The notes under the pieces: model-generated
Databases searched by the model: none
Seen by the model: the letters and a program-made list of their open reading frames with translations, nothing else
What the model was told of the DNA's origin: nothing
Made by a program: the position numbers and the translations under genes
In this document: positions 7,885-26,825 of the stretch, piece after piece
How positions within the stretch are numbered: position 1 is the stretch's first letter
Layout of the letters: each line of letters opens with the position of its first letter
Source of the DNA: Candidatus Fermentibacterota bacterium
GTDB lineage: Bacteria; Fermentibacterota; Fermentibacteria; Fermentibacterales; Fermentibacteraceae
Direction: 5' to 3'
Assembly: GCA_002748705.1 (NCBI GenBank)
Contig: PDSZ01000007.1
Location: forward strand, 1-26,825
DNA: 26,825 bases

Positions 7885-7934
7885 TCCCGGGATTCACTGC
7901 CTGAGCAACTGTACCAGACTACTGATTCCGTAAA

Positions 7935-9663: not shown

Positions 9664-9702
9664 TGCTTACCCTGCAAGGGATCTGTAACGCAGAGAAACA
9701 GG

Positions 9703-9738
9703 CAGGCAGTGGATACCACTTGCCTGGGTTGCTTTTTT
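9703..9738 (+). terminator. Intrinsic terminator after the toxin gene
   Basis: A GC-rich 10-bp stem (9703-9712 with 9716-9726, one bulged T, three-base loop) is followed after a few bases by six T at 9733-9738. It lies 40 bases past the toxin stop and separates the toxin-antitoxin operon from the HNH gene. Confidence 0.75.
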
Positions 9739-9795
9739 CTGCAATAGTGGTTTTTCTGGAACCGAGAGGTTTGAGGTCATACTGGCAGGAGCGAA

Positions 9796-10716
9796 ATGAT
9801 CAAGTCCTTCGTTGGAGTAACTGACAGAGAGTGGTTCGATTTCCTTCGCCAAAGACCTCAAGTGAACGAGATCAACTTCTGGCAGCCCTCTGGAAAGACT
9901 CAGTTCAGAGCACTAAAGCCCGGTGAAATGTTTCTATTCAAGCTTCACAGCCCACTCAACTACATTGTGGGCGGTGGAGTGTTCACCCACTCATCGATAC
10001 TCCCGATCAGCCTTGCCTGGGAAGCATTCGGTCCGGGCAACGGTGCTTCAGATCTCATGGAGATGAAGAACCGGGTTGCAAAGTATCGCAGTATACAGGT
10101 TTCTCCTTTCGAGGATTACCGGATCGGATGCATTTTGCTTGAGCAGCCGTTTTACTTCCAGGAAAAGGACTGGATTCCAGTACCTGAAGACTGGAAGCCC
10201 AATCTTGTCAGGGGCAAGACATATGATCTCAGCGTTCAGCCCGGCAGAGGGTTGTGGAGTGAGGTTTCTGCCAGGATTGCCCGGTCCTCGTCAGAATCAG
10301 CGGCTCTTGAAGTCCCCGCTTATGGAGATCCGGTTCTTGTAAAGCCAAGGCTGGGGCAGGGGGGCTTCAGAGTTCTGGTTACGGATTCTTATCAGAGGAG
10401 ATGCGCCTTTTCCGGTGAGAAAACCCTTCCTGCCCTTGATGCAGCGCATATCAAACCCTACACCATCGGTCACGATCACAGTGTTTCCAACGGCATTCTT
10501 CTTCGCAAGGACATACACGCACTCTTTGACAGGGGCTACATCACTGTCTCACCTGATTACCGGATTGAAGTAAGCAGGAGAATAAAGGAAGAGTTCGAAA
10601 ATGGCAGAGACTACTACAAGTTCCACGGCACCGAGATGAGACTGCCTGTAACACAGGATAAGAAGCCAGACAGAAACGCCCTGGAATGGCATAACGATAC
10701 GGTGTTTCTGGGGTAG
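9796..10716 (+). CDS. HNH endonuclease (predicted restriction endonuclease)
   Basis: A 306-residue product with AGGAG four bases before the ATG. The C-terminal third is an HNH_2-type nuclease. It has CAFSGEKTLPALDAAHIKPY (His218), VSNGILLRKDIHALFDRGYI (Asn232, His241), and the usual closing strand ending at ALEWHNDTVFL. The N-terminal 180 residues (FLKPGEMFLFKL-like strands, YIVGGGVFTHSS) suggest a small beta-barrel of the EVE/PUA sort, which would fit reading modified bases, but that part is inference. Proteins of this design are annotated as predicted restriction endonucleases (COG3440 type). It lies 167 bases upstream of the large helicase operon on the same strand and may be co-regulated with it or be an independent type IV-like enzyme. 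Confidence 0.85.
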   Translation: MIKSFVGVTDREWFDFLRQRPQVNEINFWQPSGKTQFRALKPGEMFLFKLHSPLNYIVGGGVFTHSSILPISLAWEAFGPGNGASDLMEMKNRVAKYRSIQVSPFEDYRIGCILLEQPFYFQEKDWIPVPEDWKPNLVRGKTYDLSVQPGRGLWSEVSARIARSSSESAALEVPAYGDPVLVKPRLGQGGFRVLVTDSYQRRCAFSGEKTLPALDAAHIKPYTIGHDHSVSNGILLRKDIHALFDRGYITVSPDYRIEVSRRIKEEFENGRDYYKFHGTEMRLPVTQDKKPDRNALEWHNDTVFLG

Positions 10717-10883
10717 AAACGGATCAAAGAAAAGCCACTGAGTAATGAACCCCAAGCGCGGTAACAGTTGCTCCTGATAACCTACTGGAAAACTATGAAA
10801 TGGGGCCTTGTTTCCCGGGCCACATTTGTTAATAATGATTTTTCTTGTTGATTTGCATGCGATCCTTTGATAGATGGGGATGT

Positions 10884-13800
10884 ATGGACGCTTTTAAATT
10901 GCGTGAGAAGATCGTAAACAGGTACAAATCTTATGTCCGCAGCTTTATTAACATTCGTGACCCACGAATAAAGAATGAGGTTAACAGGACTGTAGACAGG
11001 GGCCTTCTCTGGCCAGATCCGCTCATTCAGATCAACCCGAAGTTCCAGACCGGTGAATCCATCACTGATTTCATTCAGCAGGGAGTGCTTCATCCCGAGT
11101 GTGAGAAGATCTTCTCCATCAAGAAGCAGGACACATTACCAAAGCCGCTTACACTTTACAGACATCAGGCTGAAGCGATAAAAACTGCACATCGCGGCGA
11201 GAACTATGTACTCACAACAGGTACCGGTTCAGGTAAAAGTCTTTCCTACATCATTCCCATTGTTAACTATGCGCTGCAGAACAGGGAGAAAAAGGGCGTT
11301 AAGGCTATCATTGTCTATCCCCTCAATGCCCTTGCCAACAGCCAGATCGAGGAATTGAACCGATTCGTAAACAAGGGCTATCCCAACGAGAATGGACCGG
11401 TTACTTTCAAAAGGTATACAGGGCAGGAAAAAGAAGATGAAAAGCAGGAAGTTAGGGCCAATCCACCTGGCATTCTCCTTACAAACTATGTGATGCTGGA
11501 GCTGATTCTCACCCGTCCAGAGGAAAAGGTGATAATCAGGAACGCACAGGGGCTGAGATTCCTGGTGCTTGATGAGCTGCACACATACAGAGGCCGTCAG
11601 GGTGCGGATGTGGCAATGCTTGTTAGAAGGGCCAAGAACTACTTCTCAGCCGATAACCTTATCTGTGTGGGCACATCAGCCACCATGGCAGGTGAGGGAA
11701 ACCCTGCTGAGAGCACCAGGCAGGTTGCTGAAGTGGCCTCAAAGCTCTTCGGCTCTGAAGTGAAACCTGAGAACATCATCGGTGAGTCCCTTACCAGGGT
11801 CACGAAAACATGTGATGAGAAATCCCTGGAGTTCAGAGAAAATCTGAAACAAGCCCTTACCGATAAGAACATTCCGACAACCCTTGATGAGTTCAGAAAG
11901 AATCCTCTTGCCCAGTGGGTGGAAAACAACTTCGGAGTTGAAGAGGATTCACAGGGAAACCTCAAGAGAGCCATGCCAAAACCGCTTAAAGGTGAGAATG
12001 GCGTTGGTAAGAAGCTCGCATCAGAGTTTGAGCTGAAAGCCAATGAAACAGAGCAGACCATCAGAGATGTTCTCGACGCTGGAAACACTATCAAGTCGGA
12101 AGATTCAGAGGACAAGCCCTGCTTCGCGTACAGACTCCACCAGTTCATAAGCCCCAGTGAAACGGTCTTTACCACTCTGGAGGAGCCTGATAAGAGAAAA
12201 GTCACACTTAGCGGGCAGTACTACTCTCCATCAGACCCGGATAAGATTCTGTACCCCATGGTATTCTGTCGTGAATGCGGTCAGGAGTTCCATGCGGTAA
12301 GGATGGACGCCGACTCCGGGATGATCGAACCCAGGGAGTTTCATGATCTTCAGAAAAACCAGGAAGAATTCACCGATGGTTACCTCTACCTGAACATGGA
12401 TGAACCCTGGCCTGAAGACAGGGAAGAGGTTTACAGAAAGCTTCCTGAGGACTGGCTGGAGGAGAAGGACGGAAGGCTGTATCTCCCCAAGACCAGAAGA
12501 TCATGGGCTCCCCGCGCCATCAGCTTCAATGCTCTGGGACTGCAGAATGAAAAAGGGCTCAGGTTTGCCTTCATAAAGGCACCGTTCAGATTCTGCCCCA
12601 ACTGCGGTGTTACATACGCACCTCAGCAGGGTGATTTCGGAAAACTTGCATCCCTGGGAACCGAGGGCAGAAGCACCGCCACAACAATCCTTGCCCTGGG
12701 AACACTTTCAAACCTCCTTATGGACAAAGATCTTGAAAAAGAGGCCAGAAAGCTTCTCAGTTTCACCGACAACAGGCAGGACGCTTCACTTCAGGCTGGT
12801 CACTTCAACGACTTCATTCAGATGGGAATTCTTCGGGCAGGCATCTACAAGGCAGTAAAGAAAGCAGGGGAAAAGGGTCTTAACTACGAGAACCTTATTG
12901 ATGAGGTGTTCGACGCGATGAACATTCCGTTCCCGGAATACGCTGCGGACCCCGATGTTTTCCTTCTGGCCAGACAGGAAGTAAACAAGGTTTTCAAGGG
13001 AGTACTAGGCTACAGGATCTACAGTGATCTTCGCCGTGGCTGGCGAGTGAATGTACCAAATCTGGAGCAGGTTGGGCTTCTGACAATCGAGTACAGCCAC
13101 CTGGACATAATCTCTGAAAAAACAGACTTCTGGAGCAGTACCCATGAAGCCCTGGCAACAGCTTCATCTGAAGAGCGAAAGAGCATACTGAAAACACTCC
13201 TGGACTACATGCGAAGAGAGCTTGTGATAAAAACCGACTACCTGGATCCAGAGTATCAAGGAAGGATTGTCAGATCATCCAACCAGCGCCTCAGGGATTC
13301 ATGGGCACTTGATGAGGACGACAAACTATCCTACTCGAGTGTTCTGTTCCCTACTTCGAGACCAATAGATGATCGATTCCTGAAAGACGAGAAGAAATAC
13401 CGCTTCATGTCCGCTAGGGGCGGAATGGGCAGGTATCTAAGAAGAGCTTCCACTCTTCCCGGATACAGCGATAAATTAAACCTCGAAGAAACCGATCAGA
13501 TCATCAGTGAACTTCTTGAAGTTCTCAGAAGAGCCGGTATAGTTGAGAAGCTGCCTCAGATAAGGAAGAACCTGTCAGGTTTCAGGCTTAACTCCGCAAG
13601 CCTGATCTGGAAAGCCGGTAACGGAGAATCCCCCGCTCCAGACCCTATAAGAGTAGTAAAGGAATCTGAAAGCCGCAGAAAGATCAATGCCTACTTCAAG
13701 GACTTCTATGAAAGAGTGGGCAACAGAATACCTGAGATAAAAGCAGCGGAGCATACCGCCCAGGTGAAGAGCTACATAAGAGAAGAAAGAGAAAAGGCTT

Positions 13801-16055
13801 TCCGAAAAGCCAATCTCCCCATTCTATTCTGCTCACCAACCATGGAGCTGGGTGTAGACATTGCCCAGCTCAATGTGGTGAACATGCGCAATGTTCCACC
13901 GAACCCCGCCAACTACGCCCAGCGTTCAGGCAGGGCAGGCAGGAGCGGTCAGCCGGCCCTTGTTTACACCTACTGCGGCAAGAGCCGTCCCCACGACCAG
14001 TACTTCTTCAGAAAGCCCGAGCAGATGGTTGCCGGCGCGGTGCTCCCCCCGAGAATCGACATGGTTAACGAAGAGCTTATCCTCAGCCACCTTCATTCGA
14101 TCTGGCTTGCTGAAACAGGTGTGAAGCTCGGTAAATCCCTGAAGGACATTCTCGATCTGGGAGAAAAAAGAGAAGAACCCAGGCTCTACCAGCACATCCG
14201 CGATGAACTGGAAAAAGACCACATCACAGAAAGAACCCTAAGAAGAGTTGAAGAGATCTACAGAGACCTTATCCCTGAATTGAAAAAGGCCTTCTGGTAT
14301 GAGGAAGGCTGGTTCGAGAAGCAGCTTTCAAGGGTAATGGATCGTTTTGAGCAGGCAATGGAAAGATGGAAGTACCTCTATATGTCCGCTGCCAGCCAGA
14401 TGAAACTGCAACATGACATTGTGATGAATGCCAAGGAACGGGAGAGAAAGGACAGGGATAGAGCTGGACGGCTTTACAATGAGGCGAAAAGGCAGAGAGA
14501 TCTGCTCCTTAACGAGGACTTCGACCTGGGCAGTGATTTCTACAGCTACCGCTACTTTGCCAGCGAGGGTTTTCTTCCCGGCTACAACTTCCCCAGGCTT
14601 CCCCTCAACGCCTACATCCCGGGCAAGAGAAAACGCAGTGAGGGAGAATACCTCTCCCGCAGCAGATTCCTTGCAATAAGCGAGTTCGGTCCCAGATCCA
14701 TGATCTACCACGAGGGAGCCAAGTACGAAATAGACAGGGTGATCTTTCAGGTTGAAGGAGAAGAGATATCAACAGGTGAGATTAAGATCTGTGAGAACTG
14801 CGGCTATCTGCATGAGATAAAAACTCCACCGGGTCCTGATCTCTGCGAGAATTGTGAAACAGCTCTCCCTGTTCCCATGAGCAACATGTTCCGTCTGAGA
14901 AATGTTGCAACAAGACGCAAGCAAAGGATAAGCGCAGACGAAGAAGAGCGCATGCGTTACGGCTTTGAGCTTAGAACCGCTGTAAGGTTCGCAAAATCAG
15001 CAAAGGGTAGATACAGCAGAACCAGTACAGTAAAGGACAAAGACGGGAACACAATCCTCAACCTCAAGTATGGTCCTTCAGCCACACTCTGGAGAATCAA
15101 CCTGGGTTGGAAACGCCGCAAGGAGCAGTACAAGTACGGCTTCATCCTGGACATTGAGAAGGGCCGCTGGGAAACCCAGGAAAAGGAAGAGACCAACAGT
15201 GATAATCCACAGGCAGCCGTTACAAAACGAGTTATCCCCTATGTTGAAGACACAAAGAACTGCCTGATTGTTGAACCAGCCACAAAGCTTACCAGAGAGC
15301 AGTTCTTTTCATTCATGTCCGCCCTCAAGAATGCAGTTCAGGTTGTATACAAAATTGAGGACCGTGAGCTTGCAGCTGAAGCAATGCCCACAAAGGCAGC
15401 TCCCACCAGCATCCTTCTTTATGAATCATCGGAGGGCGGAGCAGGAGTTCTGGAACGCATCCTCAACGAGGAAAACTCCATCACGAGAATCGCAACAGAA
15501 GCCCTGAGCATCTGCCACTTCAACACGGAAACAGGCGAAAACGAAGCAGATGAACAGGAATGCAGCAAAGCCTGCTACAGTTGCATTATGAGCTACTACA
15601 ACCAATCTGAGCACAAGCTCCTGAACCGCCACAGCATCAAAGACCTCCTGATGAGCCTGAAAGAGAGCAAACACAAGATATCCCCAACGGATAAAACCCG
15701 TGAAGAACACCTCCAGAGACTCAAAGCCCTCTGTGAATCCGACCTTGAAAGAGAATGGCTGAACTTTCTGGAAGAAAACAACCTCAAGCTTCCAGACAAA
15801 GCACAGGTCCTCATCAAGGAAGCCAACACCAGAGTAGACTTCCTCTACGAGAAAGACTGCATCGCAGTGTTCATAGACGGCCCCCACCACGACAATGAGA
15901 AGGTGAAGAAGGATGATGCGGAGAAGAGGGAGAATCTGGAGGAGATGGGGTATGAGGTGGCTGTGTTTCACTACAGCGAGAAAAGCTCTTGGAATGGAAA
16001 CAAATCCATGTTCCTGCTGATGAGTTCAGGAGGAGGCAGGTGCAATGACTTCTAG
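10884..16055 (+). CDS. DUF1998 DEAD/H helicase with C-terminal nuclease-like domain
   Basis: I use the ATG at 10884 (MDAFKLREKIVNRYK, preceded by GGGGA); a TTG at 10845 would give 1736 residues. Domains: Q-like motif LYRHQAEAI; Walker A TGTGSGKS (112-119); DELH (230-233); GTSATM; CxxC pairs at 462/465 and 571/574; motif VI QRSGRAGR (1013-1020); and a Cys4 cluster at 1303/1306/1321/1324. The DUF1998 region follows, with YESSEGGAGV (about 1513) and CSKACYSC (1560-1567). The C-terminus has RVDFLY (Asp1652) and VFIDGPHH (Asp1665), as in Vsr/DUF559-type nucleases. DUF1998 helicases are core parts of DISARM and Druantia (DruE). Here the DrmA-like motor and DrmB-like DUF1998 appear in one chain. It is the first gene of a long operon and overlaps the next gene by 11 bases. 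Confidence 0.9.
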   Translation: MDAFKLREKIVNRYKSYVRSFINIRDPRIKNEVNRTVDRGLLWPDPLIQINPKFQTGESITDFIQQGVLHPECEKIFSIKKQDTLPKPLTLYRHQAEAIKTAHRGENYVLTTGTGSGKSLSYIIPIVNYALQNREKKGVKAIIVYPLNALANSQIEELNRFVNKGYPNENGPVTFKRYTGQEKEDEKQEVRANPPGILLTNYVMLELILTRPEEKVIIRNAQGLRFLVLDELHTYRGRQGADVAMLVRRAKNYFSADNLICVGTSATMAGEGNPAESTRQVAEVASKLFGSEVKPENIIGESLTRVTKTCDEKSLEFRENLKQALTDKNIPTTLDEFRKNPLAQWVENNFGVEEDSQGNLKRAMPKPLKGENGVGKKLASEFELKANETEQTIRDVLDAGNTIKSEDSEDKPCFAYRLHQFISPSETVFTTLEEPDKRKVTLSGQYYSPSDPDKILYPMVFCRECGQEFHAVRMDADSGMIEPREFHDLQKNQEEFTDGYLYLNMDEPWPEDREEVYRKLPEDWLEEKDGRLYLPKTRRSWAPRAISFNALGLQNEKGLRFAFIKAPFRFCPNCGVTYAPQQGDFGKLASLGTEGRSTATTILALGTLSNLLMDKDLEKEARKLLSFTDNRQDASLQAGHFNDFIQMGILRAGIYKAVKKAGEKGLNYENLIDEVFDAMNIPFPEYAADPDVFLLARQEVNKVFKGVLGYRIYSDLRRGWRVNVPNLEQVGLLTIEYSHLDIISEKTDFWSSTHEALATASSEERKSILKTLLDYMRRELVIKTDYLDPEYQGRIVRSSNQRLRDSWALDEDDKLSYSSVLFPTSRPIDDRFLKDEKKYRFMSARGGMGRYLRRASTLPGYSDKLNLEETDQIISELLEVLRRAGIVEKLPQIRKNLSGFRLNSASLIWKAGNGESPAPDPIRVVKESESRRKINAYFKDFYERVGNRIPEIKAAEHTAQVKSYIREEREKAFRKANLPILFCSPTMELGVDIAQLNVVNMRNVPPNPANYAQRSGRAGRSGQPALVYTYCGKSRPHDQYFFRKPEQMVAGAVLPPRIDMVNEELILSHLHSIWLAETGVKLGKSLKDILDLGEKREEPRLYQHIRDELEKDHITERTLRRVEEIYRDLIPELKKAFWYEEGWFEKQLSRVMDRFEQAMERWKYLYMSAASQMKLQHDIVMNAKERERKDRDRAGRLYNEAKRQRDLLLNEDFDLGSDFYSYRYFASEGFLPGYNFPRLPLNAYIPGKRKRSEGEYLSRSRFLAISEFGPRSMIYHEGAKYEIDRVIFQVEGEEISTGEIKICENCGYLHEIKTPPGPDLCENCETALPVPMSNMFRLRNVATRRKQRISADEEERMRYGFELRTAVRFAKSAKGRYSRTSTVKDKDGNTILNLKYGPSATLWRINLGWKRRKEQYKYGFILDIEKGRWETQEKEETNSDNPQAAVTKRVIPYVEDTKNCLIVEPATKLTREQFFSFMSALKNAVQVVYKIEDRELAAEAMPTKAAPTSILLYESSEGGAGVLERILNEENSITRIATEALSICHFNTETGENEADEQECSKACYSCIMSYYNQSEHKLLNRHSIKDLLMSLKESKHKISPTDKTREEHLQRLKALCESDLEREWLNFLEENNLKLPDKAQVLIKEANTRVDFLYEKDCIAVFIDGPHHDNEKVKKDDAEKRENLEEMGYEVAVFHYSEKSSWNGNKSMFLLMSSGGGRCNDF

Positions 16056-16836
16056 CGAGTTCTTCATTGGAGTAGTCATTGCATCAATAGGACCGCTTCT
16101 TCTTGGAGTGGGTTTTCTCTACAAAGCCCGTCAGGAAAAGATAAGAACAAGGCGGAGAGCCGCCTATCTGCTGTTGGAAATATGGAATTACATTGCTTTT
16201 ACATGCTATTTCCCTGTTGAGAAGATGATTACCGACATGATTGAACTTGTGAAACAGAAAATTTCTTTTCCGCTTCCCGAAGATGAGAATGCCAGTACAG
16301 ATGCAATCAACAAGATAACTCCCATAATGACAAGTCACATTCTGGAACAGCAGATAGAATGCGTAAACAGATATGAGAAGCTATACATGGAAGCAATTGA
16401 TCTTATGTCATACACAGACCCCATGCTGGCTTTCTCGATCAGCTCTGCTGGTAATGTTAGAAAGAATCTGGAGAGGAGCAAAGCGCAACTTGAGGAAATG
16501 GGTGAGGATTCGGTTGATGATGATCTTCTCAACGATTTCCTAGGCCAGTTCAAGGCTGGTGTTACAGAAAATGTTACCCATGATGCGCTTGACTCACTTG
16601 AAGATGAAATCTCTGAGCTGACCGGAAAAATCGGTCCTCTTATTCACAGGAAGTGCAAGAAGCTTTTTAAAGATTCGAAAGTAGATGTAACAAGGGAGAA
16701 GGAGTACAGGGAAACTCTTGAAAAAGCAACAGAGGAGATTGTTCAAGTATTGCTGGTAACGCTGACCAATATCGTTCAGAGAATCCCAAATGGTGAAGCA
16801 AGCCTAGAAAAACTTCAAAGCAAGGATAGCACTTAA
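16045..16836 (+). CDS. Membrane-anchored helical protein of unknown function
   Basis: This 263-residue product is not one I recognise. An N-terminal hydrophobic segment (residues 7-27, FIGVVIASIGPLLLGVGFLY) is followed by RTRRR, predicting a single anchor with the body in the cytoplasm. A second moderately hydrophobic stretch (39-58) could be membrane-associated. The rest is alpha-helical and charged, with likely coiled-coil stretches around 130-160 and 185-255. The start overlaps the helicase stop by 11 bases and the stop is 2 bases from the next start, so it is an integral part of the operon. A membrane-bound member suggests a scaffold or effector at the envelope, but no catalytic motif is visible. 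Confidence 0.8.
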   Translation: MTSSEFFIGVVIASIGPLLLGVGFLYKARQEKIRTRRRAAYLLLEIWNYIAFTCYFPVEKMITDMIELVKQKISFPLPEDENASTDAINKITPIMTSHILEQQIECVNRYEKLYMEAIDLMSYTDPMLAFSISSAGNVRKNLERSKAQLEEMGEDSVDDDLLNDFLGQFKAGVTENVTHDALDSLEDEISELTGKIGPLIHRKCKKLFKDSKVDVTREKEYRETLEKATEEIVQVLLVTLTNIVQRIPNGEASLEKLQSKDST

Positions 16837-16838
16837 TC

Positions 16839-18629
16839 TTGAGAAAAGACATTCGCCTCTTCATAAGCAGTGTCCAGAGCGAGTTCTCTAAAGAGCGAAT
16901 CGCTCTCCGGGACTTTATTCAGGGTAATGCGCTTCTCGGCAAGTTTTTTACTGTATTCATCTTTGAAGATACTCCTGCTGAAGACCGTAAACCGGATTCT
17001 GTATACCTGGATGAGATCGGCAGGAGCGATATCTACCTTGGGCTCTTTGGTGAGAAGTACGGTAGAAAGAACAGTGATGGCTTGTCTGCTACCCATGCTG
17101 AGTTCAATGAAGCAACAAGACTCGGAGTGGAGAGGCTTGTCTTTCGAAAGAGAGTCGATGAAGCAATTTGTGACCGGGAACTGCTTCATTTCTTGTCAGG
17201 CACCAGCTCTGACTTAACCTATCATCCTTTTACAGATCTACCGCAATTGCTTGAAGCTGTTTATTCTGCACTGATCAGGTATCTGGAAACCAGGAAGCTC
17301 ATTGTCACTGGTCCCTTTGATGCTTCATCAACTCAAAAGGCAACGCTGGATGACATTTCTGATGCAAAGATCAGTGAGTTCCTGGTAAGAGCAAGAAACA
17401 CTAGGGGTTTTCCTCTGGATGAAACCACACCGAAACTTGATCTGTTGAAGCATCTCGATCTCCTTGATGAAGAAACACCCAAGAACGCCGCACTTCTTCT
17501 CTTCGGGGAGAAACCTCAGAAGTTTTTCATCACTTCAGAAGTGAAGTGCATGATGTTCTACGGCAATACAGTTACCAAGCCTATACCCTCATATCAGATA
17601 TACAAGGGAACCGTTTTTGAGATGGTGGATCAGGCGGTGGACTTCATAATGTCCAGAGTTGACTGTTATGTCGGCGAAGCAATTAAGAGCAATCAGGTTC
17701 CTGTTGAGTATGAAATTCCCCAACAGGTAGTCAGAGAGGCCATTGTGAACGCAGTAGCCCACAGAGACTACACCAGTAACGGCAGTGTGCAGGTAATGCT
17801 GTTCAGAGACAGGTTTGAAATATGGAATCCTGGCAGATTACCTTCTGCTCTTTCAATAAGCATGCTGTACGAACCACATACCTCAATCCCGGCTAATCCG
17901 CTTATTGCAGAAGAGATGTACCGTGCCGGATACATCGAGAAAGCCGGAAGCGGAACAATCGATATGCTGAACAGGTGTAGGGAAGCGGAGATCCCTGAGC
18001 CGGTTTTCTCCACTGAAACCGGGCAATTCACCATTTCGTTCAGAAGAAAATCCAGCTTGACCGATCAAGTCACCCCCCATGTAACCCCGCAAGTACCCCG
18101 CATGATAAAACCCCATGATAAAATGCGACTAGATTCTCCACAAAATAGACTGATTGCTGTTCTTGTTGGTGAGATGTCAAGAATAGAGCTGATGGATCTG
18201 TTAGAGCTTAGAGACCGTAAAAGCTTTATGGATAACTATATAGATCCAGCAATTCAATCAGGTGCAGTTAGAATGACACTACCGGATAATCCTAGAAGCA
18301 AATCTCAGAAGTACTGTCTTACTGCAATTGGTGAGAAGCGGAAAAAGGAACTGACCGTACAAGTCACCGTACAAGTTACCGACCAAGTCACCGACCAAGT
18401 TGCTGATCATTTGATGGAACTACTCACTGTAGTTATTGAAGAAATGAGTAGTGCTGAAATCATGTCAAAGCTGGGGTTATCACACAAACCAAGCTTCAGG
18501 ACAAACTATATCAACCAGGCAATCGCTCAGGGTTTGCTTGAAATGACAATACCCAACAAGCCAACAAGCAGCAAGCAGAAATACAGATTGACCGCAAAGG
18601 GAAAACAACTTCAGAAAGAGATTGAGTAA
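16839..18629 (+). CDS. DUF4062-GHKL ATPase with duplicated winged-helix modules
   Basis: A 596-residue protein starting at TTG, two bases after the previous stop. Residues 1-110 are a DUF4062 domain (RLFISSVQSEFSKERIALRD, then DIYLGLFGEKYG and ATHAEFNEA), related in fold to TIR-like modules. Residues about 180-400 match the COG2865-type ATP-binding regulators: AALLLFGEKP, EAIVNAVAHRDY (His308), FEIWNPGRLP and EEMYRAGYIEKAGSGT. The C-terminus holds two copies of a linker of V-T-x-Q-V units followed by a winged helix (about 430-505 and 525-596), clearly duplicated. The likely job is sensing and regulation, with DNA binding through the winged helices. Whether DUF4062 has NAD-related activity cannot be read from the sequence. 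Confidence 0.85.
   Translation: MRKDIRLFISSVQSEFSKERIALRDFIQGNALLGKFFTVFIFEDTPAEDRKPDSVYLDEIGRSDIYLGLFGEKYGRKNSDGLSATHAEFNEATRLGVERLVFRKRVDEAICDRELLHFLSGTSSDLTYHPFTDLPQLLEAVYSALIRYLETRKLIVTGPFDASSTQKATLDDISDAKISEFLVRARNTRGFPLDETTPKLDLLKHLDLLDEETPKNAALLLFGEKPQKFFITSEVKCMMFYGNTVTKPIPSYQIYKGTVFEMVDQAVDFIMSRVDCYVGEAIKSNQVPVEYEIPQQVVREAIVNAVAHRDYTSNGSVQVMLFRDRFEIWNPGRLPSALSISMLYEPHTSIPANPLIAEEMYRAGYIEKAGSGTIDMLNRCREAEIPEPVFSTETGQFTISFRRKSSLTDQVTPHVTPQVPRMIKPHDKMRLDSPQNRLIAVLVGEMSRIELMDLLELRDRKSFMDNYIDPAIQSGAVRMTLPDNPRSKSQKYCLTAIGEKRKKELTVQVTVQVTDQVTDQVADHLMELLTVVIEEMSSAEIMSKLGLSHKPSFRTNYINQAIAQGLLEMTIPNKPTSSKQKYRLTAKGKQLQKEIE
18060..18095 (+). repeat. Degenerate 12-bp tandem repeat, first linker
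   Basis: Three imperfect 12-base units (18060-18071, 18072-18083, 18084-18095) encode T-D-Q-V, T-P-H-V and T-P-Q-V. They join the ATPase module to the first winged helix and echo the better-conserved array at 18354-18401. Confidence 0.6.
18354..18401 (+). repeat. Four 12-bp tandem repeats, second linker
   Basis: Four units of ACCGnnCAAGTy lie head to tail and encode T-V-Q-V twice, then T-D-Q-V twice. They differ only at two internal bases and the last base. The unit length preserves the frame, so gain or loss of units would lengthen or shorten the linker without breaking the protein. Confidence 0.8.
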
Positions 18630-18632
18630 GAA

Positions 18633-21404
18633 ATGCCATACGCATCAGGTTCACTGGTAAAGGCAAGAGGCAGAGAATGGGTTGTTCAGCTTGACTCAGG
18701 TGAGAGGATTCTTCTGCTCAAGCCTCTTGGCGGCACAGATGAAGAGATCACAGGTATTTGCCTTGATCTTGAAAAGGTAGAAGAAGCTTCATTCAGGCCA
18801 CCTGAGAAGACTCAGCTGGGGGATTACAGGTCAGCGAGGCTTCTCAGGAATGCCGTTAAGCTGGGGTTCAGGAACAGCGCAGGGCCCTTCAGGTGTTTCG
18901 GGTCAATTGCTGTTGAGCCCAGGCCTTATCAGCTTGTGCCCCTTCTCATGGCTTTGAAGCTTGATCCCATAAGAATGCTTATCAGTGATGATGTGGGTAT
19001 AGGTAAAACAATCGAAGCATGTCTGATAGTGAAAGAACTACTGGCCAGGGGAGAGATAACCGGGTTCAGCGTACTGTGTCCGGCGCAGCTTGCTGAACAG
19101 TGGCAGAAGGAACTGAAAGAGAAGTTTCATATTGATTCTGAGCTTGTGCTGCCCGGTACCGTAAAAAGGCTTGAGAAGAACCTTACCATGGGGCAGTCTC
19201 TCTTTGAGAAGTATCCCGTAACGGTTGTTTCACTGGACTTCATCAAGAGTGACAGGCACAGAAGTGATTTCATCAGAGCATGCCCCAAAACAGTGATAAT
19301 CGATGAGGCACACTCATGCGCCAGTAAAGGTACCAGAAGGCATCAGAGATACAACCTTGTAAAAGAGCTGTCGCAGGATGAGAGCAGGAACATGCTCTTT
19401 GTTACAGCAACACCCCACAGCGGTAATGAAGATGCCTTCAGATCGCTCTTAACCCTGCTGAAACCTGAGTTCAGTGGTCTGCCTCCGGTTCTTACAGGCA
19501 AAGAGAATGAACAGCACAGAAGGAATCTGGCAAAACACTTTGTGCAGAGAACCCGTGGAGACATCACAGCATACCTGAACGAGGAAACCTCATTCCCAGC
19601 AAGGGAAGACAAGGAAGAACCCTACCTCCTCAGTGAGAAGTACAAAAAGCTCTTTGATGATGTTATCAGCTACACAAGGGAATCCATCTCAAAGAAACAG
19701 ATAGACCACAGAGGCAGGATCAGATACTGGTCTGCCCTTGCGCTCCTGAGAGCCCTTGCCTCCAGTCCCAGTGCCGCTGCGGCAACACTGAAAAACAGAG
19801 CCGCGGTTGCCGACACTGAAACCGCCGAGGAAGCCGATGAAATAGGAAGAAGAACCATTCTCGACCTGGACCTGGACACCATGGAGGAAGCTCCGGACAT
19901 CATTCCCGGAAGCAAAACAGGAGAGAATGAAAAGAAACTCATTTCCCTTGCCAGACAGGCAGAGGCAATAGAACCTGAAGATGACCTGAAGCTCCAGAAG
20001 GCAATCAAGCTTGTGAAGAAACACATGAAGGAGGGTTACTACCCCATTGTGTTCTGCAGGTTCATCGACACAGCCGAATACCTGGCAGCGAATCTCAGAA
20101 GCAAGATCAAAAAGGCAAACATAGAATGTGTAACAGGTAAGTTGCCCCATGAGGAAAGAGAGAGAATAGTTGAAGAACTCTCCTCCATGGAAAACAGAGT
20201 ACTTGTATGCACCGACTGTCTCAGTGAGGGTATCAACCTCCAGGAGGGTTTCAACTCCGTTATTCACTATGACCTGTCATGGAACCCCATGCGACACGAG
20301 CAGAGGGCAGGCAGGGTAGACCGTTACGGTCAGAAGAGTGGCACCGTAAGGGTAACCAACTACTACGGGGAAGACAACGGCATAGATCAGCGTGTAATGA
20401 AGGTCCTTTTGAAGAAGCACACCAGCATAAGGAACTCACTGGGAATAAGCGTACCCATTCCAGGCTCCACCAGCGAGATAATGGAAGCCCTCATTGAAGA
20501 CCTCTTCCAGAGCAGCAGCCAGATGGTGCTCTCCGGGTTTGAAGACTTCATGGCAAAAACAGGAAACGAGATCTTCAGAAGGTGGGACAGGGCAGAGGAG
20601 AGGGAGAAGCAGTCCCGAACCATGTTCCGCCAGATGACCATTAAGGTAGATGAGGTTGCAAGAGAACTCCAGGAAGCCCGGGAGGCAACCGGTTCCGGCA
20701 TAAGCATCGAGCAGTTCGTAACCGATGCTGTACGGTTCCATGACGGAGTAGTAACTGAAACAAAGGGAACCGTTACCCTGGACCTGAAAGACTCCCCGGA
20801 ACCCCTTGCGGATGCCCTTGAACTCCCGGACACAAACAGGGTGAAAAGGGTTACCTACTCATACCCGCCCAAGGCAGATGAAGAATACCTCACAAGAACC
20901 CACCCCTTTATTGAAAACCTTGCCGCCTACATTGTAGACAGCACAATGGACGAGGAAACAGACAGCAGAACCGGCAGGTGCGGTGTTATCAGGACAAATC
21001 AGATCCAGAAGAAAACAACCCTTATTCTCACAAGAACCAGGTACCACATAGACAACCTGCTCACAGAAGACACAGAACTGTTCGCATTCACCGGGAAACC
21101 CTCAAATCCCGCACTCCTCACACAGGACGAAGCAAAAGAACTGCTCACAATGAAACCCACTGCACAGATGAACCCCGACATTGCCTGGGCCAACATCGAA
21201 CGAATCACAGGCGAGACGGAAACACTCATGAAGCATCTCACCGCCCATGCTGAACAGCGTGGTGAAGAGATACTCAGGTCACACACAAGGGTAAGACAGG
21301 CCACGAGGCAGAAGAAGCAACCGAAGATCAAACTCCAGAAACCTGTGGACATACTGGGCATCTATGTGTTCCTCCCCACACCGGGGGGAGTAAGCAATGC
21401 GTAA
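18633..21404 (+). CDS. SNF2-family helicase, DrmD-like
   Basis: The 923-residue product starts three bases after the previous stop. The N-terminus (VKARGREWVVQLDSGERILL, LLKPLGGTDEEITG) is followed by EPRPYQLVPLLMALKLDPIR and Walker A VGIGKT (Lys125), then DEAH (224-227) and FVTATPHSG. The second motor half has CTDCLSEGINLQEGFN and QRAGRVDRYGQ (from 557). The C-terminal 300 residues are unassigned and helical. This layout agrees with the SNF2 helicase DrmD of class 1 DISARM and with HepA/RapA-like motors. It overlaps the methyltransferase start by 8 bases, the same order (helicase then methylase) as in class 1 DISARM. All motor motifs look intact. Confidence 0.87.
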   Translation: MPYASGSLVKARGREWVVQLDSGERILLLKPLGGTDEEITGICLDLEKVEEASFRPPEKTQLGDYRSARLLRNAVKLGFRNSAGPFRCFGSIAVEPRPYQLVPLLMALKLDPIRMLISDDVGIGKTIEACLIVKELLARGEITGFSVLCPAQLAEQWQKELKEKFHIDSELVLPGTVKRLEKNLTMGQSLFEKYPVTVVSLDFIKSDRHRSDFIRACPKTVIIDEAHSCASKGTRRHQRYNLVKELSQDESRNMLFVTATPHSGNEDAFRSLLTLLKPEFSGLPPVLTGKENEQHRRNLAKHFVQRTRGDITAYLNEETSFPAREDKEEPYLLSEKYKKLFDDVISYTRESISKKQIDHRGRIRYWSALALLRALASSPSAAAATLKNRAAVADTETAEEADEIGRRTILDLDLDTMEEAPDIIPGSKTGENEKKLISLARQAEAIEPEDDLKLQKAIKLVKKHMKEGYYPIVFCRFIDTAEYLAANLRSKIKKANIECVTGKLPHEERERIVEELSSMENRVLVCTDCLSEGINLQEGFNSVIHYDLSWNPMRHEQRAGRVDRYGQKSGTVRVTNYYGEDNGIDQRVMKVLLKKHTSIRNSLGISVPIPGSTSEIMEALIEDLFQSSSQMVLSGFEDFMAKTGNEIFRRWDRAEEREKQSRTMFRQMTIKVDEVARELQEAREATGSGISIEQFVTDAVRFHDGVVTETKGTVTLDLKDSPEPLADALELPDTNRVKRVTYSYPPKADEEYLTRTHPFIENLAAYIVDSTMDEETDSRTGRCGVIRTNQIQKKTTLILTRTRYHIDNLLTEDTELFAFTGKPSNPALLTQDEAKELLTMKPTAQMNPDIAWANIERITGETETLMKHLTAHAEQRGEEILRSHTRVRQATRQKKQPKIKLQKPVDILGIYVFLPTPGGVSNA

Positions 21405-24400
21405 GTCGAACATCTTTGAAACGGTAACAACCAGAGGCGCACTGCTGCCAACAGATTTTCTCACGAAGCTTTCCCTGACCCCCAGTGAAGTAAGCAGCAC
21501 CAGACCTGAAGACTTCAATCATCCAGGTGAAAAACTGAATGAAGTAATCAGCAGAGCCTGGAATACCCTTCAGATACACTGGAAGCATTTCTCTGAACAG
21601 GAAGACAAGACAATAGCCATTACAAGGGAAAGGTGGCTGATACCCCTGTTCAGAGAGCTGGACTACGGCAACCTGAAAAGAGCCGAAAAGCACACCATCG
21701 ACGGCAAGGATTATCCCGTTTCCCACACCAGAGACAATGTGCCAATTCACCTCCTTGGCACAAACATCAATCTGGACCACAGAACACCGGGAAAAACAAG
21801 GCAGATTCCCCATTCCATGATGCAGGAGTACCTGAATAAGAACGAAACCCCAACCTGGGGAATACTCTCAAACGGGCAAAAACTCAGAATACTCAGGGAA
21901 AACTCATCAATGACCCGTCAGGCCTACATCGAGTTCGATCTTGAAAAGATGATGGAAAGCCAGGCATACAGTGACTTCACTCTCCTGTACCTGATCTGCC
22001 ACGAATCAAGGTTCACAAAACAGACTGAAGAGAAGAAACAGATAATAGAACAGTGGGCAGCAACCGCAAGAAAATCCGGCATCAGAGCCCTGGACACTCT
22101 CAGAACCGGTGTAAAGGAAGCCATTGAAGCTCTGGGAAAAGGCTTCCTCATCAACCAGATCATAAGGAACAACCTCAGAGACCGGGAAGACTACAAGCAG
22201 GACTACTACAGGCAGCTCCTCAGAGTAGCCTACAGATTGATTTTTCTCTTAACCGCTGAATCAAGGGAACTGCTTCTTGATCCCGAGGCCACACAACAGG
22301 CCAAAGACCTCTACTACAAGTACTACTCACTCACAAGGATCAGAAACCTTGCCGAGAGGAAACGCGGCACCCGCCACAAAGACCTCTGGAAAGCCCTCAA
22401 TGTTACCATCGCAAGTCTGTGCAAAGCAGAGCCAACGCCAGAAATTGGAATAAAGCCCCTGGGCAGCTTCCTCTGGAGCGCAGAGGCAACCAGAGATCTC
22501 AATGAAGCAGACATAGAGAACAAGTACCTCTGCCAGGCACTCAGGGCAATAACCCTCACCACAAAAGAGGGAGTAACAACAAGGGTAGACTACCGCAACC
22601 TGGGTAGCGAGGAGCTGGGCAGCATCTATGAATCCCTTCTTGAAATGCGCCCTGAAGTAAACGCCGACGCAAGGTTCTTCAAGCTCAATATCACAGCAGG
22701 CAACGAGAGAAAAACCACAGGCAGTTACTACACCCCCACTGAACTCATCAATGAACTCCTGAACTCAGCCCTGGACCCAGTAATCAAAACAAAAAAAACC
22801 GAGGATGAAATCCTCAACACCAAAGTCTGCGACCCTGCCTGCGGATCCGGTCACTTCCTCATTGCAGCAGCCCACAGAATGGCAAGGCACCTTGCTGCAA
22901 AACGCACCGAGGAAACAGAGCCTGACCCCACCACCTACAGAACTGCCCTGAGAGACATCATCAGCCACTGCATCTACGGAGTAGACATCAATCCAATGAG
23001 CGTTGAACTCTGCAAGATCAGCCTCTGGCTTGAAGCAATTGAACCGGGTAAACCACTCAGCTTCCTGGACCACCACATCAAATGCGGCAACAGCCTCATG
23101 GGAACCAGCCCTGACCTCATGATAGACCATGAAGTAAGCGAGAAGAAGCACAAGTTCATATCCATTCCGGACAAAGCATTCAGCCCCATAACAGTTGACG
23201 ACAAGCAGATAGCATCAAAGCTGAAAAAGCTCAACAAAACCCAGAGGAAATCCACAAGCCGGGACTTTTTCTACTCAATGACAGATGATGACACACAGGT
23301 AAAGCAACTGGCCCTTCAGGTAGCTGAAATAGACCACAGGCAAGACAACAGCATAAACCAGCTCAAAGAGAAGGAAGCAAGTTACAGAACAGTAACAACC
23401 TCAGCCATATTCAACACCGAGAAAACCAAGGCAGACCTCTGGTGCGCAGCATTCGTACAGAGAAAAACCAGTGAAAACGAACACCCCATAACAACCGAAA
23501 CACTGAGATCATTCAAAGACAACCCCAAGACCCTCAAAGAAGTCCAAAGAGAAGAAACCAGAAGACTCGCAGAAAAGTACCAGTTCTTCCACTGGTACAT
23601 TGAGTTCCCCGAGGTATTCCAGAGGGAAAATAAGGAACAGAATGGGTTTGATGTTGTGCTGGGGAATCCGCCGTGGGAGCACACGGAACTCAAGGAGAAA
23701 GAGTTCTTTGCTTCAAGAGATGAAAAGATTGCCAACGCAACCGGAGCCCAGAGAAAGAAACTGATTGCATCACTGGAACAGAGTGATCCTGATTTATTCA
23801 GTCTTTTCAATGAAACAAAGAGAGAGCATGATGCTCCAAGCCATTTTGTAAGGAACTCAGAGAAGTATCCTCTGTGCGGTTTGGGAAGAATCAATACCTA
23901 TGCCGTGTTTGCGGAACTGAACAAAGATCTCATCAATGCAACTGGAAGAGTGGGCTGCATTGTTCCTTCAGGAATTGCCACTGATGAGAATACGAAGACA
24001 TATATAAGCTTCTTGTTCCAGCACAATATGCTAGTGTCATTCTATGATATGCAAAATACAAGCGACATATTCAACGGTGTATCGACACTACTCAGATTTG
24101 CTTTGTTGACTTTGGCTAGTGGCATTAAAAAACCTGCAACTATTGCATACAGCACTACTAGTGCTAATATACTTAATAATAGTATCTCTATATATTCTAT
24201 GGATTATAATGAATTAATACTATTCAATCCAAACACGCATACATGTCCAATGTTTTCGGATAGAAAAGATTATCATATTTCTAAAAAAATATATCAAAAG
24301 CATAATGTGCTATATGACAACAGCAAGATGGGGAACAGAGAAAGTATACTATTTAAGCAAGGTTACTTTAATATGACAAGTGACAGCCAGCATTTTAAGG

Positions 24401-25269
24401 ATTCTAGCTATTTCAACTCAATGCAGTGTGTTGCTGTCAATAATAAGTATCTGGCCAAAGAGAATTTTTTTGTACCTCTATACGAAGGTAAAATGGTAAA
24501 TATATACAATTATAGATATTCTGATTGGTCGAGAATTAGTGGATCAAGACAGAAGAGGTTACCTGAGACACCATTGGAGGCATTGCGAGATTCCGAGCAT
24601 TATACAGTTCCCTACTACTGGGTAAGCGAGAAAGTACTTCGAGAGCGTCAAGCAACAACATATTGGGATAGAAAATGGAGTGTTGGTTGGAGGGACATAT
24701 GTAGAAGCACAGATGAAAGAACTGCCATTTTTACATTATGGCCCAATGAAGCTGCAGGACATACTTTTCCACAAATCTTCTTCTTAGAGCGTACACCACA
24801 AGAAATAGCCTGCTTTCTTGCGAATGCGTCAACATATATATTTGATTATTTAGTGAGACAAAAAATTACAGGAATACATTTAACATATAATATACTAAAA
24901 CAAATACCTATCGTAGCAAAAGAAATATATTATCAGTCTCTAATATATAACAACTACAAGTATTGCTGTATGGATTTAATTCTTGAAAGAGTGTTGAGAT
25001 TGGTATACAATACATATGAGCTCAAGAGTTTTGCTGAAGACTGTGGCTACTATGGATCTCCTTTCCAATATGATGAGAAGCAGAGAATTGACGATATGGC
25101 CTTTCTGGACGCAGCATTCTTCCAACTACATGATATATCTCGAGAAGAAGTTGTCTTCATCATGGCTAAGTTTCCAGCTCGGCGACGAAAAGAGCAGAAA
25201 CGCTATGGAAGATATTTATCACTAGAATGTATACTTGAGCAGTATTCGAGAATAAGGAAAGAGATATAA
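21397..25269 (+). CDS. N6-adenine DNA methyltransferase (Eco57I/PglX/DrmMI-like)
   Basis: A 1290-residue protein with a strong site (GGGGGAG) upstream and an 8-base overlap with the helicase gene. The methyltransferase core has GSYYTPTELINELL before motif I, DPACGSGHFL (479-488) for AdoMet, GVDINPMSVELCKISLWLEA, and the catalytic NPPW (757-760) typical of N6-adenine enzymes. The large N-terminal region (1-440) is like PglX/BrxX and DrmMI, and the C-terminal 400 residues should be the target-recognition part. No separate restriction nuclease domain is seen here. Its expected job is marking host DNA so that the helicase-nuclease complex spares it. The region from about 24030 on is markedly AT-richer than the rest. 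Confidence 0.9.
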   Translation: MRKSNIFETVTTRGALLPTDFLTKLSLTPSEVSSTRPEDFNHPGEKLNEVISRAWNTLQIHWKHFSEQEDKTIAITRERWLIPLFRELDYGNLKRAEKHTIDGKDYPVSHTRDNVPIHLLGTNINLDHRTPGKTRQIPHSMMQEYLNKNETPTWGILSNGQKLRILRENSSMTRQAYIEFDLEKMMESQAYSDFTLLYLICHESRFTKQTEEKKQIIEQWAATARKSGIRALDTLRTGVKEAIEALGKGFLINQIIRNNLRDREDYKQDYYRQLLRVAYRLIFLLTAESRELLLDPEATQQAKDLYYKYYSLTRIRNLAERKRGTRHKDLWKALNVTIASLCKAEPTPEIGIKPLGSFLWSAEATRDLNEADIENKYLCQALRAITLTTKEGVTTRVDYRNLGSEELGSIYESLLEMRPEVNADARFFKLNITAGNERKTTGSYYTPTELINELLNSALDPVIKTKKTEDEILNTKVCDPACGSGHFLIAAAHRMARHLAAKRTEETEPDPTTYRTALRDIISHCIYGVDINPMSVELCKISLWLEAIEPGKPLSFLDHHIKCGNSLMGTSPDLMIDHEVSEKKHKFISIPDKAFSPITVDDKQIASKLKKLNKTQRKSTSRDFFYSMTDDDTQVKQLALQVAEIDHRQDNSINQLKEKEASYRTVTTSAIFNTEKTKADLWCAAFVQRKTSENEHPITTETLRSFKDNPKTLKEVQREETRRLAEKYQFFHWYIEFPEVFQRENKEQNGFDVVLGNPPWEHTELKEKEFFASRDEKIANATGAQRKKLIASLEQSDPDLFSLFNETKREHDAPSHFVRNSEKYPLCGLGRINTYAVFAELNKDLINATGRVGCIVPSGIATDENTKTYISFLFQHNMLVSFYDMQNTSDIFNGVSTLLRFALLTLASGIKKPATIAYSTTSANILNNSISIYSMDYNELILFNPNTHTCPMFSDRKDYHISKKIYQKHNVLYDNSKMGNRESILFKQGYFNMTSDSQHFKDSSYFNSMQCVAVNNKYLAKENFFVPLYEGKMVNIYNYRYSDWSRISGSRQKRLPETPLEALRDSEHYTVPYYWVSEKVLRERQATTYWDRKWSVGWRDICRSTDERTAIFTLWPNEAAGHTFPQIFFLERTPQEIACFLANASTYIFDYLVRQKITGIHLTYNILKQIPIVAKEIYYQSLIYNNYKYCCMDLILERVLRLVYNTYELKSFAEDCGYYGSPFQYDEKQRIDDMAFLDAAFFQLHDISREEVVFIMAKFPARRRKEQKRYGRYLSLECILEQYSRIRKEI

Positions 25270-25271
25270 GT

Positions 25272-25556
25272 ATGAATGTTTACATGGTTATTGGCAACGG
25301 AGTTACACTTGATCTTGTTCAAGAACTTCGTAAAGAAAAGGATATTGATTTAAAAAACTTGTTTAGAAATGGTGAAAAGGTAAAATGGCCTGGAGATGAT
25401 AGAGTCGGCTACCTTTCTTATAAAAGATGTCCTGCTCTTTGGCGCTTGGGAGCTCGACCTCACTCCACAAGAGAGGAGTATCAAAAAATAGTAACAGACA
25501 TAATAACATGTGCAAATGTATATGCATCAATAGAGATAAAAAAAGACCAAGGATAG
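25272..25556 (+). pseudogene. N-terminal fragment of a 'GNG'-motif protein
   Basis: This 94-residue frame starts 2 bases after the methyltransferase stop and keeps the AT-rich composition. It begins MNVYMVIGNGVTLDLVQEL, resembling the glycine-rich nucleotide-binding start of SIR2-like or AbiH-like proteins, and continues LSYKRCPALWRLGARP. I think it is the front of a longer uncharacterised protein. A run of seven A (25538-25544) precedes the stop. In the shifted frame the reading continues about 20 codons to 25603, just before the IS4-type element. It therefore looks truncated by the insertion and perhaps frameshifted as well. A short intact gene remains possible. Confidence 0.6.
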
Positions 25557-25619
25557 ATTCGAATATTGAATCTATATCAGGCCTGTCCAAGATAGCTTTT
25601 TAGCATCAAGATAAGAAAA

Positions 25620-25694
25620 ATGCCCTTTGCGGCTCAATTAAGTAGAATTTGATTTCCCAAGAACAAGTTCACTCAAAAGATCCGAAAGGGCATG
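25620..25694 (+). promoter_or_regulatory. Hairpin masking the transposase start
   Basis: Bases 25620-25632 (ATGCCCTTTGCGG) pair with 25682-25693 (CCGAAAGGGCAT), giving 12 base pairs with one bulge. The right arm contains the AAAGGG ribosome binding site and the first bases of the ATG. A transcript entering from the defence operon would fold and hide the start. Confidence 0.5.
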
Positions 25695-26825
25695 CCGAAT
25701 ATGACACACTGCGCAAGTTTATTCAATCAGCTACTGCAACAGTTCCCAAGAGCAGACTTTAAGAGACTCGTAAACAAGCACCGCACCGAGAGAAGAGCCA
25801 AAGGATTCTCCTCCTGGAGTCAGTTCGTTTCCATGTTATTCTGTCACCTGGCCAGAGCGGACTCTCTCCGGGAGATCAGTTATGGCCTTGCATGCTGCAT
25901 TGGGAAGCTCAGTCATCTGGGATTGAAAAAAGCCCCTCCCAAGTCCACTCTGGCCTATGCTAATGCCAACAGACCGGCTGAGCTGTTTGAGGACTTGTTT
26001 TACAGTACCCTGGCATCATTCCGAAAACAGAGAAAGCTTGGGAGAAGGAAGCCTTTCAGATTTAAGAACAAGCTGCTGACCTTTGACTCCACGACTATCA
26101 CACTTGTCCTTGAGGCCTTTCCCTGGGCTGAGTACAGAACACGGAAGGGCGGCGTTAAGCTCCATGTCCTGCTGGACAACGCAGATCTGATGCCGGAGTT
26201 CGTCTGCATGACAGAAGCTCGGATGAATGACTGTAAAGGTCTGAGCATGCTCAATCTCAAACCAGGTACCATCATTACCATGGATCGTGGTTACAACGAC
26301 TTTGCCCAGTTCGGTGAATGGACCGAAAAGGGAGTGTTCTTCGTGACCAGGATGAAATCGAATACGAAGCACCAGATCAAAGAGAGTAGAGTACCCCCTC
26401 AGAACAGGCATATTCTGGCAGATCAGATTGTCATTCTTACCGGGGCTAATGCAGATAAGTGTGCCCACGATCTTAGACTGGTCAGAGCCATTGATCCGGA
26501 GACCGGAAATGTCATAGATATTCTTACCAACAACCTGGAGCTTGGTGCATCCACCATCAGCGGCATTTACCGTGAAAGGTGGCGCATAGAGGAGTTTTTC
26601 AGGCTGCTCAAGCAAAATCTGAAGATCAAAACCTTTGTGGGAACATCACGCAATGCTCTTTTGACTCAAATTTGGACAGCTCTCATAGCCCTGCTCCTGC
26701 TGAGGTGGCTGCACTATCTGTCTGAAGGTGGGTGGTCATTCTCTAATCTTGCAGCGATGCTGCGAATGAACCTCTTTACTTACAGAGACTTACTCGAGTG
26801 GTTGAAGGATCCGTTCGGGTCTCCA
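25692..26825 (+). CDS. IS4-family transposase, 3' end outside the window
   Basis: 378 codons are visible and the frame is open at the window end. The N-terminus (SLFNQLLQQFPRADFKRLV, SWSQFVSMLFCHLARADSLR) is the usual DUF4372-type leader of this IS4 group. Catalytic residues are Asp132 in TFDSTT, Asp198 in TMDRGYNDF, and Glu300 within YRERWRIEEFFRLLK. That last motif fits the IS4 signature Y-2-R-3-E-6-K exactly (Tyr293, Arg296, Glu300, Lys307). The start is ATG with AAAGGG just before it. Nothing visible is broken, so the enzyme is probably functional if the missing end is intact. Confidence 0.92.
   Translation, partial: MPNMTHCASLFNQLLQQFPRADFKRLVNKHRTERRAKGFSSWSQFVSMLFCHLARADSLREISYGLACCIGKLSHLGLKKAPPKSTLAYANANRPAELFEDLFYSTLASFRKQRKLGRRKPFRFKNKLLTFDSTTITLVLEAFPWAEYRTRKGGVKLHVLLDNADLMPEFVCMTEARMNDCKGLSMLNLKPGTIITMDRGYNDFAQFGEWTEKGVFFVTRMKSNTKHQIKESRVPPQNRHILADQIVILTGANADKCAHDLRLVRAIDPETGNVIDILTNNLELGASTISGIYRERWRIEEFFRLLKQNLKIKTFVGTSRNALLTQIWTALIALLLLRWLHYLSEGGWSFSNLAAMLRMNLFTYRDLLEWLKDPFGSP

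Follow-up and report, generated by a model that had tools for sequence, protein, structure and literature searches.

A probable ARMADA Type I operon with a DUF4062-GHKL-winged-helix gene between yprA and snf2

Six plus-strand genes at 10884-25556 of the window – the whole 26,825-nucleotide stretch of DNA analysed here – form a compact operon that raises two questions: which defense system it encodes, and what the two genes set among its core components contribute. The original prediction was of a rearranged class 1 DISARM, possibly belonging to a group already named elsewhere. We confirmed all six open reading frames, and the spacings between successive genes (-11, +2, +3, -8 and +2 nt) agree with the predicted overlaps of 8-11 nt and gaps of 2-3 nt. 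The domains predicted for genes 1, 3, 4 and 5 also stood; gene 6, listed then as a component, is instead a truncated SIR2-like ORF.

Identity of the core genes

Gene 1 (10884..16055, plus strand; 1723 aa, with a longer TTG start at 10845 also open) encodes a YprA-family helicase in which Pfam recognizes DEAD, Helicase_C and MZB (DUF1998) domains and a DUF559-like tail, the last just at cut-off. Gene 4 (18633..21404, plus strand; 923 aa) encodes a SNF2/RapA-like helicase (Pfam SNF2) that matches a DpdE-labelled PADLOC model at 787 bits over residues 2-917 and DrmD at 288 bits. Gene 5 (21397..25269, plus strand; 1290 aa) encodes a PglX-like/type IIG-like adenine DNA methyltransferase with Pfam Eco57I and N6_Mtase domains, a DPACGSG motif at 479 and NPPW at 757; its PADLOC match to DrmMI reaches 241 bits.

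A system of this composition, ARMADA, has been described as comprising a YprA helicase-Vsr nuclease, a SNF2 helicase and a PglX-like methyltransferase, encoded in the order yprA, snf2, MTase in Type I (Bell et al. 2025, preprint PMC12458937). The same preprint presents helicase-fused DUF1998 as the usual YprA arrangement, with the split DrmA/DrmB of DISARM as the exception, and reports a Vsr tail on the ARMADA YprA. The window resembles Type I as described there – a YprA with DUF1998 and a Vsr tail first, then a SNF2/RapA-like helicase, then a PglX-like methyltransferase – and differs in adding gene 2, an orphan membrane protein, and gene 3, a DUF4062-GHKL-winged-helix protein, after yprA. Genes 1, 4 and 5 are homologous to ArmC, ArmA and ArmB of the Type II system of Escherichia coli ATCC 8739 (L125), respectively, with 29% identity over 636 columns for ArmA and 26% over 498 columns for ArmB. 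The Type II order differs, however, being snf2-MTase-yprA-armD, where ArmD is a RelE-UvrD protein.

In a tree of YprA proteins, gene 1 belongs to a clade of 62 leaves (local support 0.976) that all have yprA upstream of snf2; E. coli ArmC and DruE III both lie outside it. This tree was rooted on DruE, with DruE III as its sole Druantia protein and with DISARM proteins not included; the Type I assignment of gene 1 rests on gene order and on its exclusion from ArmC, the Type I reference WP_108720193.1 not being in the tree. CxxC pairs at positions 462, 571, 1303 and 1321 are present in 62 of 62 proteins compared; for Type I, the preprint describes a BrxA-like insert after RecA1 and zinc-binding inserts. 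The predicted model of the gene 1 tail resembles Vsr. Because a Foldseek search with that model returned nothing at E <= 0.001, and so no Vsr match, the assignment rests on inspection with VIA-align and on conserved residues; on this evidence, gene 1 ends in a Vsr-type nuclease, as expected of ARMADA Type I. The final residues are unlike those of its relatives, and the end of the gene has perhaps been remodelled at its junction with gene 2.

We consider it very likely that genes 1, 4 and 5 constitute an ARMADA Type I core, and probable that the whole, leaving aside any coupling between its parts, is an ARMADA Type I operon of a Ca. Sabulitectum-like bacterium, with a cargo insertion between yprA and snf2. 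The suspicion that the group had already been named was thus correct: the core received its name, ARMADA, in the 2025 preprint, and this locus adds members to it, not a class. Searches with the core SNF2 protein gave no match in phages at E <= 1e-60 and two loci in viral contigs, one full-length (L081) and one partial (L082).

The kinship with DISARM that had been noted is real, in that the window holds DrmD-like and DrmMI-like genes, its SNF2 helicase and methyltransferase matching the respective models, as class 1 DISARM would. That the locus is itself a class 1 DISARM in which DrmA and DrmB were fused and DrmC was replaced by a fused nuclease is nevertheless highly improbable. Gene 1 fits DruE far better than DrmA in PADLOC (377.7 versus 47.7 bits), and NCBIfam scores are well under cut-off both for DrmA in gene 1 (24.6 bits against 950) and for DrmD in gene 4 (334 against 610). 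The window DUF1998 is fused to its helicase, and neither the separate DUF1998 protein DrmB nor the PLD nuclease DrmC is among the PADLOC matches listed (the best 25 of 35, 64 and 47 for genes 1, 4 and 5); Pfam finds no PLD domain in the six proteins. Gene 1 also belongs to a large clade of proteins with the same layout (in the tree without DISARM proteins), and one same-phylum MAG (G004) carries separate DrmA-like and DrmB-like genes two genes downstream of its own ARMADA operon, the order there being a methyltransferase-like gene, an unassigned gene, the DrmA-like gene (373 bits) and the DrmB-like gene (118 bits). The proposed fusion and nuclease swap were therefore abandoned. Druantia shares with gene 1 its best PADLOC model, DruE3, but gene 1 has snf2 and methyltransferase genes as neighbours, no other Druantia model is among the matches listed, and the DruE-rooted tree places gene 1 apart from E. 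coli DruE III. Among open-licence PMC papers, we found none that joins DISARM, Druantia and DUF4062.

One further locus is of note for its gene order. On a Thermus thermophilus plasmid (L120), snf2 is followed by an NYN gene, the methyltransferase gene, two genes on the opposite strand, yprA and an ArmD-like gene (33% identity to E. coli ArmD over 703 columns). This order is Type II-like; the YprA of L120 groups with that of Haloquadratum and lies closer to the Type I clade than E. coli ArmC does.

At the downstream end of the operon, gene 6 (25272..25556, plus strand) encodes 94 aa of about 268: its residues 5-86 are 48.8% identical to a 268-aa Sulfurovum plasmid protein, which itself matches SIR2_2 at 23.0 bits, below the cut-off of 24.5. 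Gene 6 has no Pfam family, no relative in viral contigs or solved structures, and two plasmid matches, one of them convincing; a search of 42 same-phylum genomes for the full-length 268-aa relative, run without a positive control, did not find it. About 20 nt past its stop begins an IS element (25577..26825, plus strand) encoding a transposase with Pfam DUF4372 and DDE_Tnp_1 domains. The element runs off the window end, and its left end lies at about 25577, as DNA matches in three genomes (G026, G034 and G032) start at window positions 25576-25577. Gene 6 is a truncated SIR2-like stub beside the IS element, probably non-functional debris.

Upstream of the operon, the window holds further defense-type genes, all on the plus strand. 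These are an AAA_14/DUF4143 ATPase (1722-2966; PADLOC candidate PDC-S01, 335 bits), a TOTE-type archaeo-eukaryotic primase-helicase fusion (5557-7884; AEP-TOTE, 335 bits; PADLOC PrimPol), an HTH and SocA/Panacea antitoxin-like gene that overlaps a 127-aa gene by one base and with it (8486-9663) looks like a Panacea-type toxin-antitoxin pair, and, next to gene 1, an HNH protein (9796-10716) that resembles phosphorothioate-DNA restriction endonucleases at 63.6 bits, below the NCBIfam cut-off of 180. In three plasmid ARMADA loci, annotated HNH genes lie downstream of the methyltransferase gene.

The junction between yprA and snf2

We examined the place that genes 2 and 3 occupy by scanning genomes with an alignment of gene 4 and taking the best 80 of 351 query relatives as loci. 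The yprA-snf2 junction was visible in 73 of these and not visible in seven. It is empty in 55 loci, holds at least one co-directional ORF in 17 and is ambiguous in one (L072), though these counts come from mechanical ORF calls, mostly on MAG contigs picked by similarity to the window, and 17 of 73 is not a population estimate. In 44 of the empty junctions the two genes overlap, 25 times by exactly 4 nt; in the other 11 they are separated by 2-103 nt. A second sample, L128-L181 (54 loci), overlaps the first and is used qualitatively only.

The occupants are diverse. Pfam identified GHKL proteins (L003, L004), UvrD proteins (L012, L036, L061), Fic (L049, joined by L054 on similarity), Abi_2 (L043), NB-ARC/TPR (L029), a pPIWI-RE-associated REase-like domain (L005) and zinc ribbons only (L007), and assigned no family to cargo of L030, L047, L055, L070 and L074. 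The Pfam scan covered all occupants but the cargo of L038, which clusters with that of L030, the cargo of L054 and the 73-aa ORF of L074. The three UvrD proteins (L012:6258-8309, L036:2835-4916 and L061:7932-10004) are ArmD orthologues lying between yprA and snf2, in the Type I order, with 31-33% identity to E. coli ArmD over about 700 residues, the N-terminal region included; ArmD follows yprA in Type II too. At L012, we saw no methyltransferase after snf2.

Occupancy is clustered on the YprA tree. Of its 62 scored leaves, 17 have an occupied slot – a set that differs from the 17 occupied loci in that L036 and L070 are outside the tree while the window and L113 are in it. Scored as occupied or empty, the slot requires 8 changes. 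Shuffled leaves required a mean of 15.0 changes, with none of 1000 shuffles at or below 8, a rough control given that the leaves are related and unevenly sampled. When cargo kinds were told apart, each unclassified cargo counting as its own kind, the number rose to 14 changes. Because occupied slots cluster on the tree while cargo kinds change, slot occupancy looks inherited and its contents appear to switch.

Gene 2 (16045..16836, plus strand; 263 aa) is an orphan with a single hydrophobic N-terminal segment (hydropathy maximum 2.35 at residue 7) and no PADLOC, Pfam or NCBIfam match. A protein search that needs shared 5-residue words returned only gene 2 itself, plasmids gave no match, and the four matches in the 42 same-phylum genomes (best E 0.04, 28-34% identity over short stretches, two with internal stops) were not convincing. 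Gene 2 is also missing from the same junction in two of these genomes, G001 and G004. By this absence of relatives, it is a passenger or a private addition.

Whether gene 3 is a passenger as well can be asked in the terms of the original prediction, under which the membrane and DUF4062 genes would count as such if absent from all related loci. No search found a relative of gene 2; a DUF4062 gene recurs at the same place in G001 and G004, though 55 of 73 junctions are empty, and because of this recurrence gene 3 is not a one-off passenger. Defense islands accumulate genes, and both genes could still be passengers at a junction without functional meaning, an account that we judge possible if somewhat doubtful. 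It accommodates the empty majority of junctions, the orphan status of gene 2 and the inserts found also between snf2 and the methyltransferase gene (12 of 71 loci, including Phd-PIN pairs in L011 and an A. caldus plasmid). Clustering of occupied slots at about half the changes of shuffled trees, persisting while cargo kinds change, argues against it, as do the ArmD orthologues in the slot at three loci. A more far-reaching proposal is that ARMADA has a heritable effector slot immediately behind yprA, filled by ArmD (in Type II and some Type I), Fic, Abi_2, STAND-like or REase-like proteins, or by GHKL arrays whose NADase or AlbA heads and fast-changing winged-helix tails are re-paired by recombination, so that one restriction core would carry interchangeable phage-sensing abortive-infection arms. 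We advance it tentatively, and as a whole it is rather unlikely.

The main text of the ARMADA preprint (PMC12458937) contains no occurrence of 'accessory', 'membrane protein', 'DUF4062', 'GHKL' or 'slot'. In the main texts of open-licence PMC papers, we found neither the slot nor an ARMADA-associated DUF4062-GHKL protein described, and among the papers listed on type I R-M inserts and on AlbA_2/GHKL proteins we saw none on such an arrangement.

Gene 3 and its GHKL relatives

Gene 3 (16839..18629, plus strand; 596 aa, TTG being the first in-frame start) is the slot cargo of the window. Pfam recognizes a DUF4062 head, a GHKL ATPase (HATPase_c_4) and two Fic-like_C winged helices. The predicted fold of the head matches NDT and TIR, and its residue E88 is conserved without exception in the 37 proteins aligned; the final winged helix is a relative of the one in the Fic protein 4rgl. 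A 2026 preprint (PMC13174449) describes DUF4062 as an NADase with a catalytic glutamate, reports that the winged auxiliary domain of one such protein, KpSwz, binds the phage portal, and places some DUF4062 genes in operons with homologues of characterized defense genes. Gene 3 shares with the Swarozyc/DUF4062 NADases of that preprint a TIR-like DUF4062 with a conserved glutamate and a C-terminal winged domain, but differs in its central GHKL ATPase and Fic-type winged helices; 'GHKL', 'HATPase', 'Fic' and 'ARMADA' do not occur in the main text. E88 of gene 3 is the putative equivalent of KpSwz E97. On balance, we favor an NADase activity for gene 3.

AlbA-headed GHKL proteins are generally regarded as transcriptional regulators, and gene 3 may be no more than the regulator of its operon, its winged helices binding operator DNA, its GHKL domain sensing a ligand and its DUF4062 head a ligand-binding relic. 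One source gives some relatives the name predicted HTH transcriptional regulator, the Fic-type relationship of the last winged helix would suit this role, and paralogues within the same array bear SLFN_AlbA_2 heads. A relic would hardly keep E88 in every aligned protein, however; DUF4062 NADase activity has been shown elsewhere (PMC13174449), and the four different tandem copies in one operon of G004 would be odd for an autoregulator. We regard the regulator account as rather unlikely but not negligible. Proteins of the DUF4062-GHKL-winged-helix type abound (at least 3882 at E <= 1e-30; two plasmid records at E <= 1e-40), and the family among the loci examined occurs in ARMADA slots in this phylum only, which leaves room for gene 3 as a regulator or a hitch-hiker.

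Relatives of gene 4 (E <= 1e-100) are present in six of the 42 same-phylum genomes, at seven places. The G004 slot holds one DUF4062-headed and three AlbA-headed GHKL proteins, and that of G001, read across two contigs, one of each together with a GHKL-less winged-helix ORF. G003 has a single AlbA-headed GHKL protein, G002 a partial GHKL protein and a short winged-helix ORF, and G027 NYN and HTH genes with an opposite-strand ORF. Of the two loci in G005, one carries small cargo and the other is empty.

In these proteins, tails do not follow bodies. Comparison of seven GHKL bodies showed 29-34% identity between DUF4062-headed and AlbA-headed proteins. Copies a and c of G004 have tails that are 74% identical and bodies that are 32-33% identical, while the G003 protein and copy c of G004 are 95% identical in body and 47% in tail. 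In G004 DNA, the tail of a plus the head of b match the tail of c plus the head of d (76% over 1236 columns), which is best explained if a tandem duplication, or an unequal crossing-over, broke within the tails. Tail exchange between copies a and c was considered and dropped, since the matching stretches extend beyond a tail into the head of the following gene and duplication or crossing-over is simpler. In the L110 array (6314-13910), short repeats such as (TDQV)n link the winged-helix tails, which are re-paired with bodies; DNA matches that continue from a tail into the following head suggest tandem duplication with tail breakpoints. ORFs at L001:2200-3330 and L002:675-1187 keep a GHKL-protein start and winged-helix tails without the AlbA and GHKL parts, and read as either deletion derivatives of the array or tail stores.

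Within the 120 family members listed, the first winged helix has diverged more than the rest. For pairs with body identity of 0.75-0.80 (1003 pairs), median identities were 0.77 for GHKL, 0.66 for DUF4062 and 0.48 for the winged helix, a divergence that changing numbers of modules can inflate. The difference is nearly gone in close pairs (body identity >= 0.90, 96 pairs; medians 0.92, 0.86 and 0.83).

A putative two-arm mechanism

Every step of antiphage activity proposed here is drawn from homologues, our own observations being of gene content, homology, tree placement, predicted fold, conserved residues and slot recurrence. By analogy, the gene 5 methyltransferase would mark host DNA. Phage DNA lacking the mark would be located and degraded by the two helicases, YprA (gene 1, acting with its Vsr nuclease) and SNF2 (gene 4), and the cell would survive. 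In the ARMADA preprint, protection without growth arrest is described for Type II, the type assayed there, Type I not being assayed; the preprint treats ArmD as part of Type II, and the E. coli Type II system cannot do without it (PMC12458937). The window has no ArmD, with no UvrD domain recognized by Pfam in the six proteins, an absence that counts against this reading.

Gene 3, probably co-transcribed, would be a separate effector in which a GHKL ATPase serves as the switch between a TIR-like NADase head and winged-helix tails. It would most likely form a second line that either senses a phage product by way of its tails or is set free by a block of ARMADA; once triggered, it would deplete NAD+ as an abortive, suicide-type arm. 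Its gating by the state of ARMADA is a guess modelled on PrrC, an effector with genetic linkage to a type I R-M enzyme that keeps it silent (PMC2610378). PrrC itself is an anticodon nuclease unrelated to gene 3. We give limited credence to gene 3 as a gated backup of ARMADA, and it counts against this reading that the link of a winged domain to the phage portal is reported for KpSwz (PMC13174449), not for the gene 3 architecture.

If the slot is functional, a single ARMADA transcript would combine a DNA-targeting system with abortive effectors that can be exchanged. The presence of ArmD, by which Type I and Type II are told apart, would then be a softer dividing line than published. The GHKL arrays would then offer a natural set of proteins – one switch with different heads and tails – for mapping the phage triggers of DUF4062 NADases.
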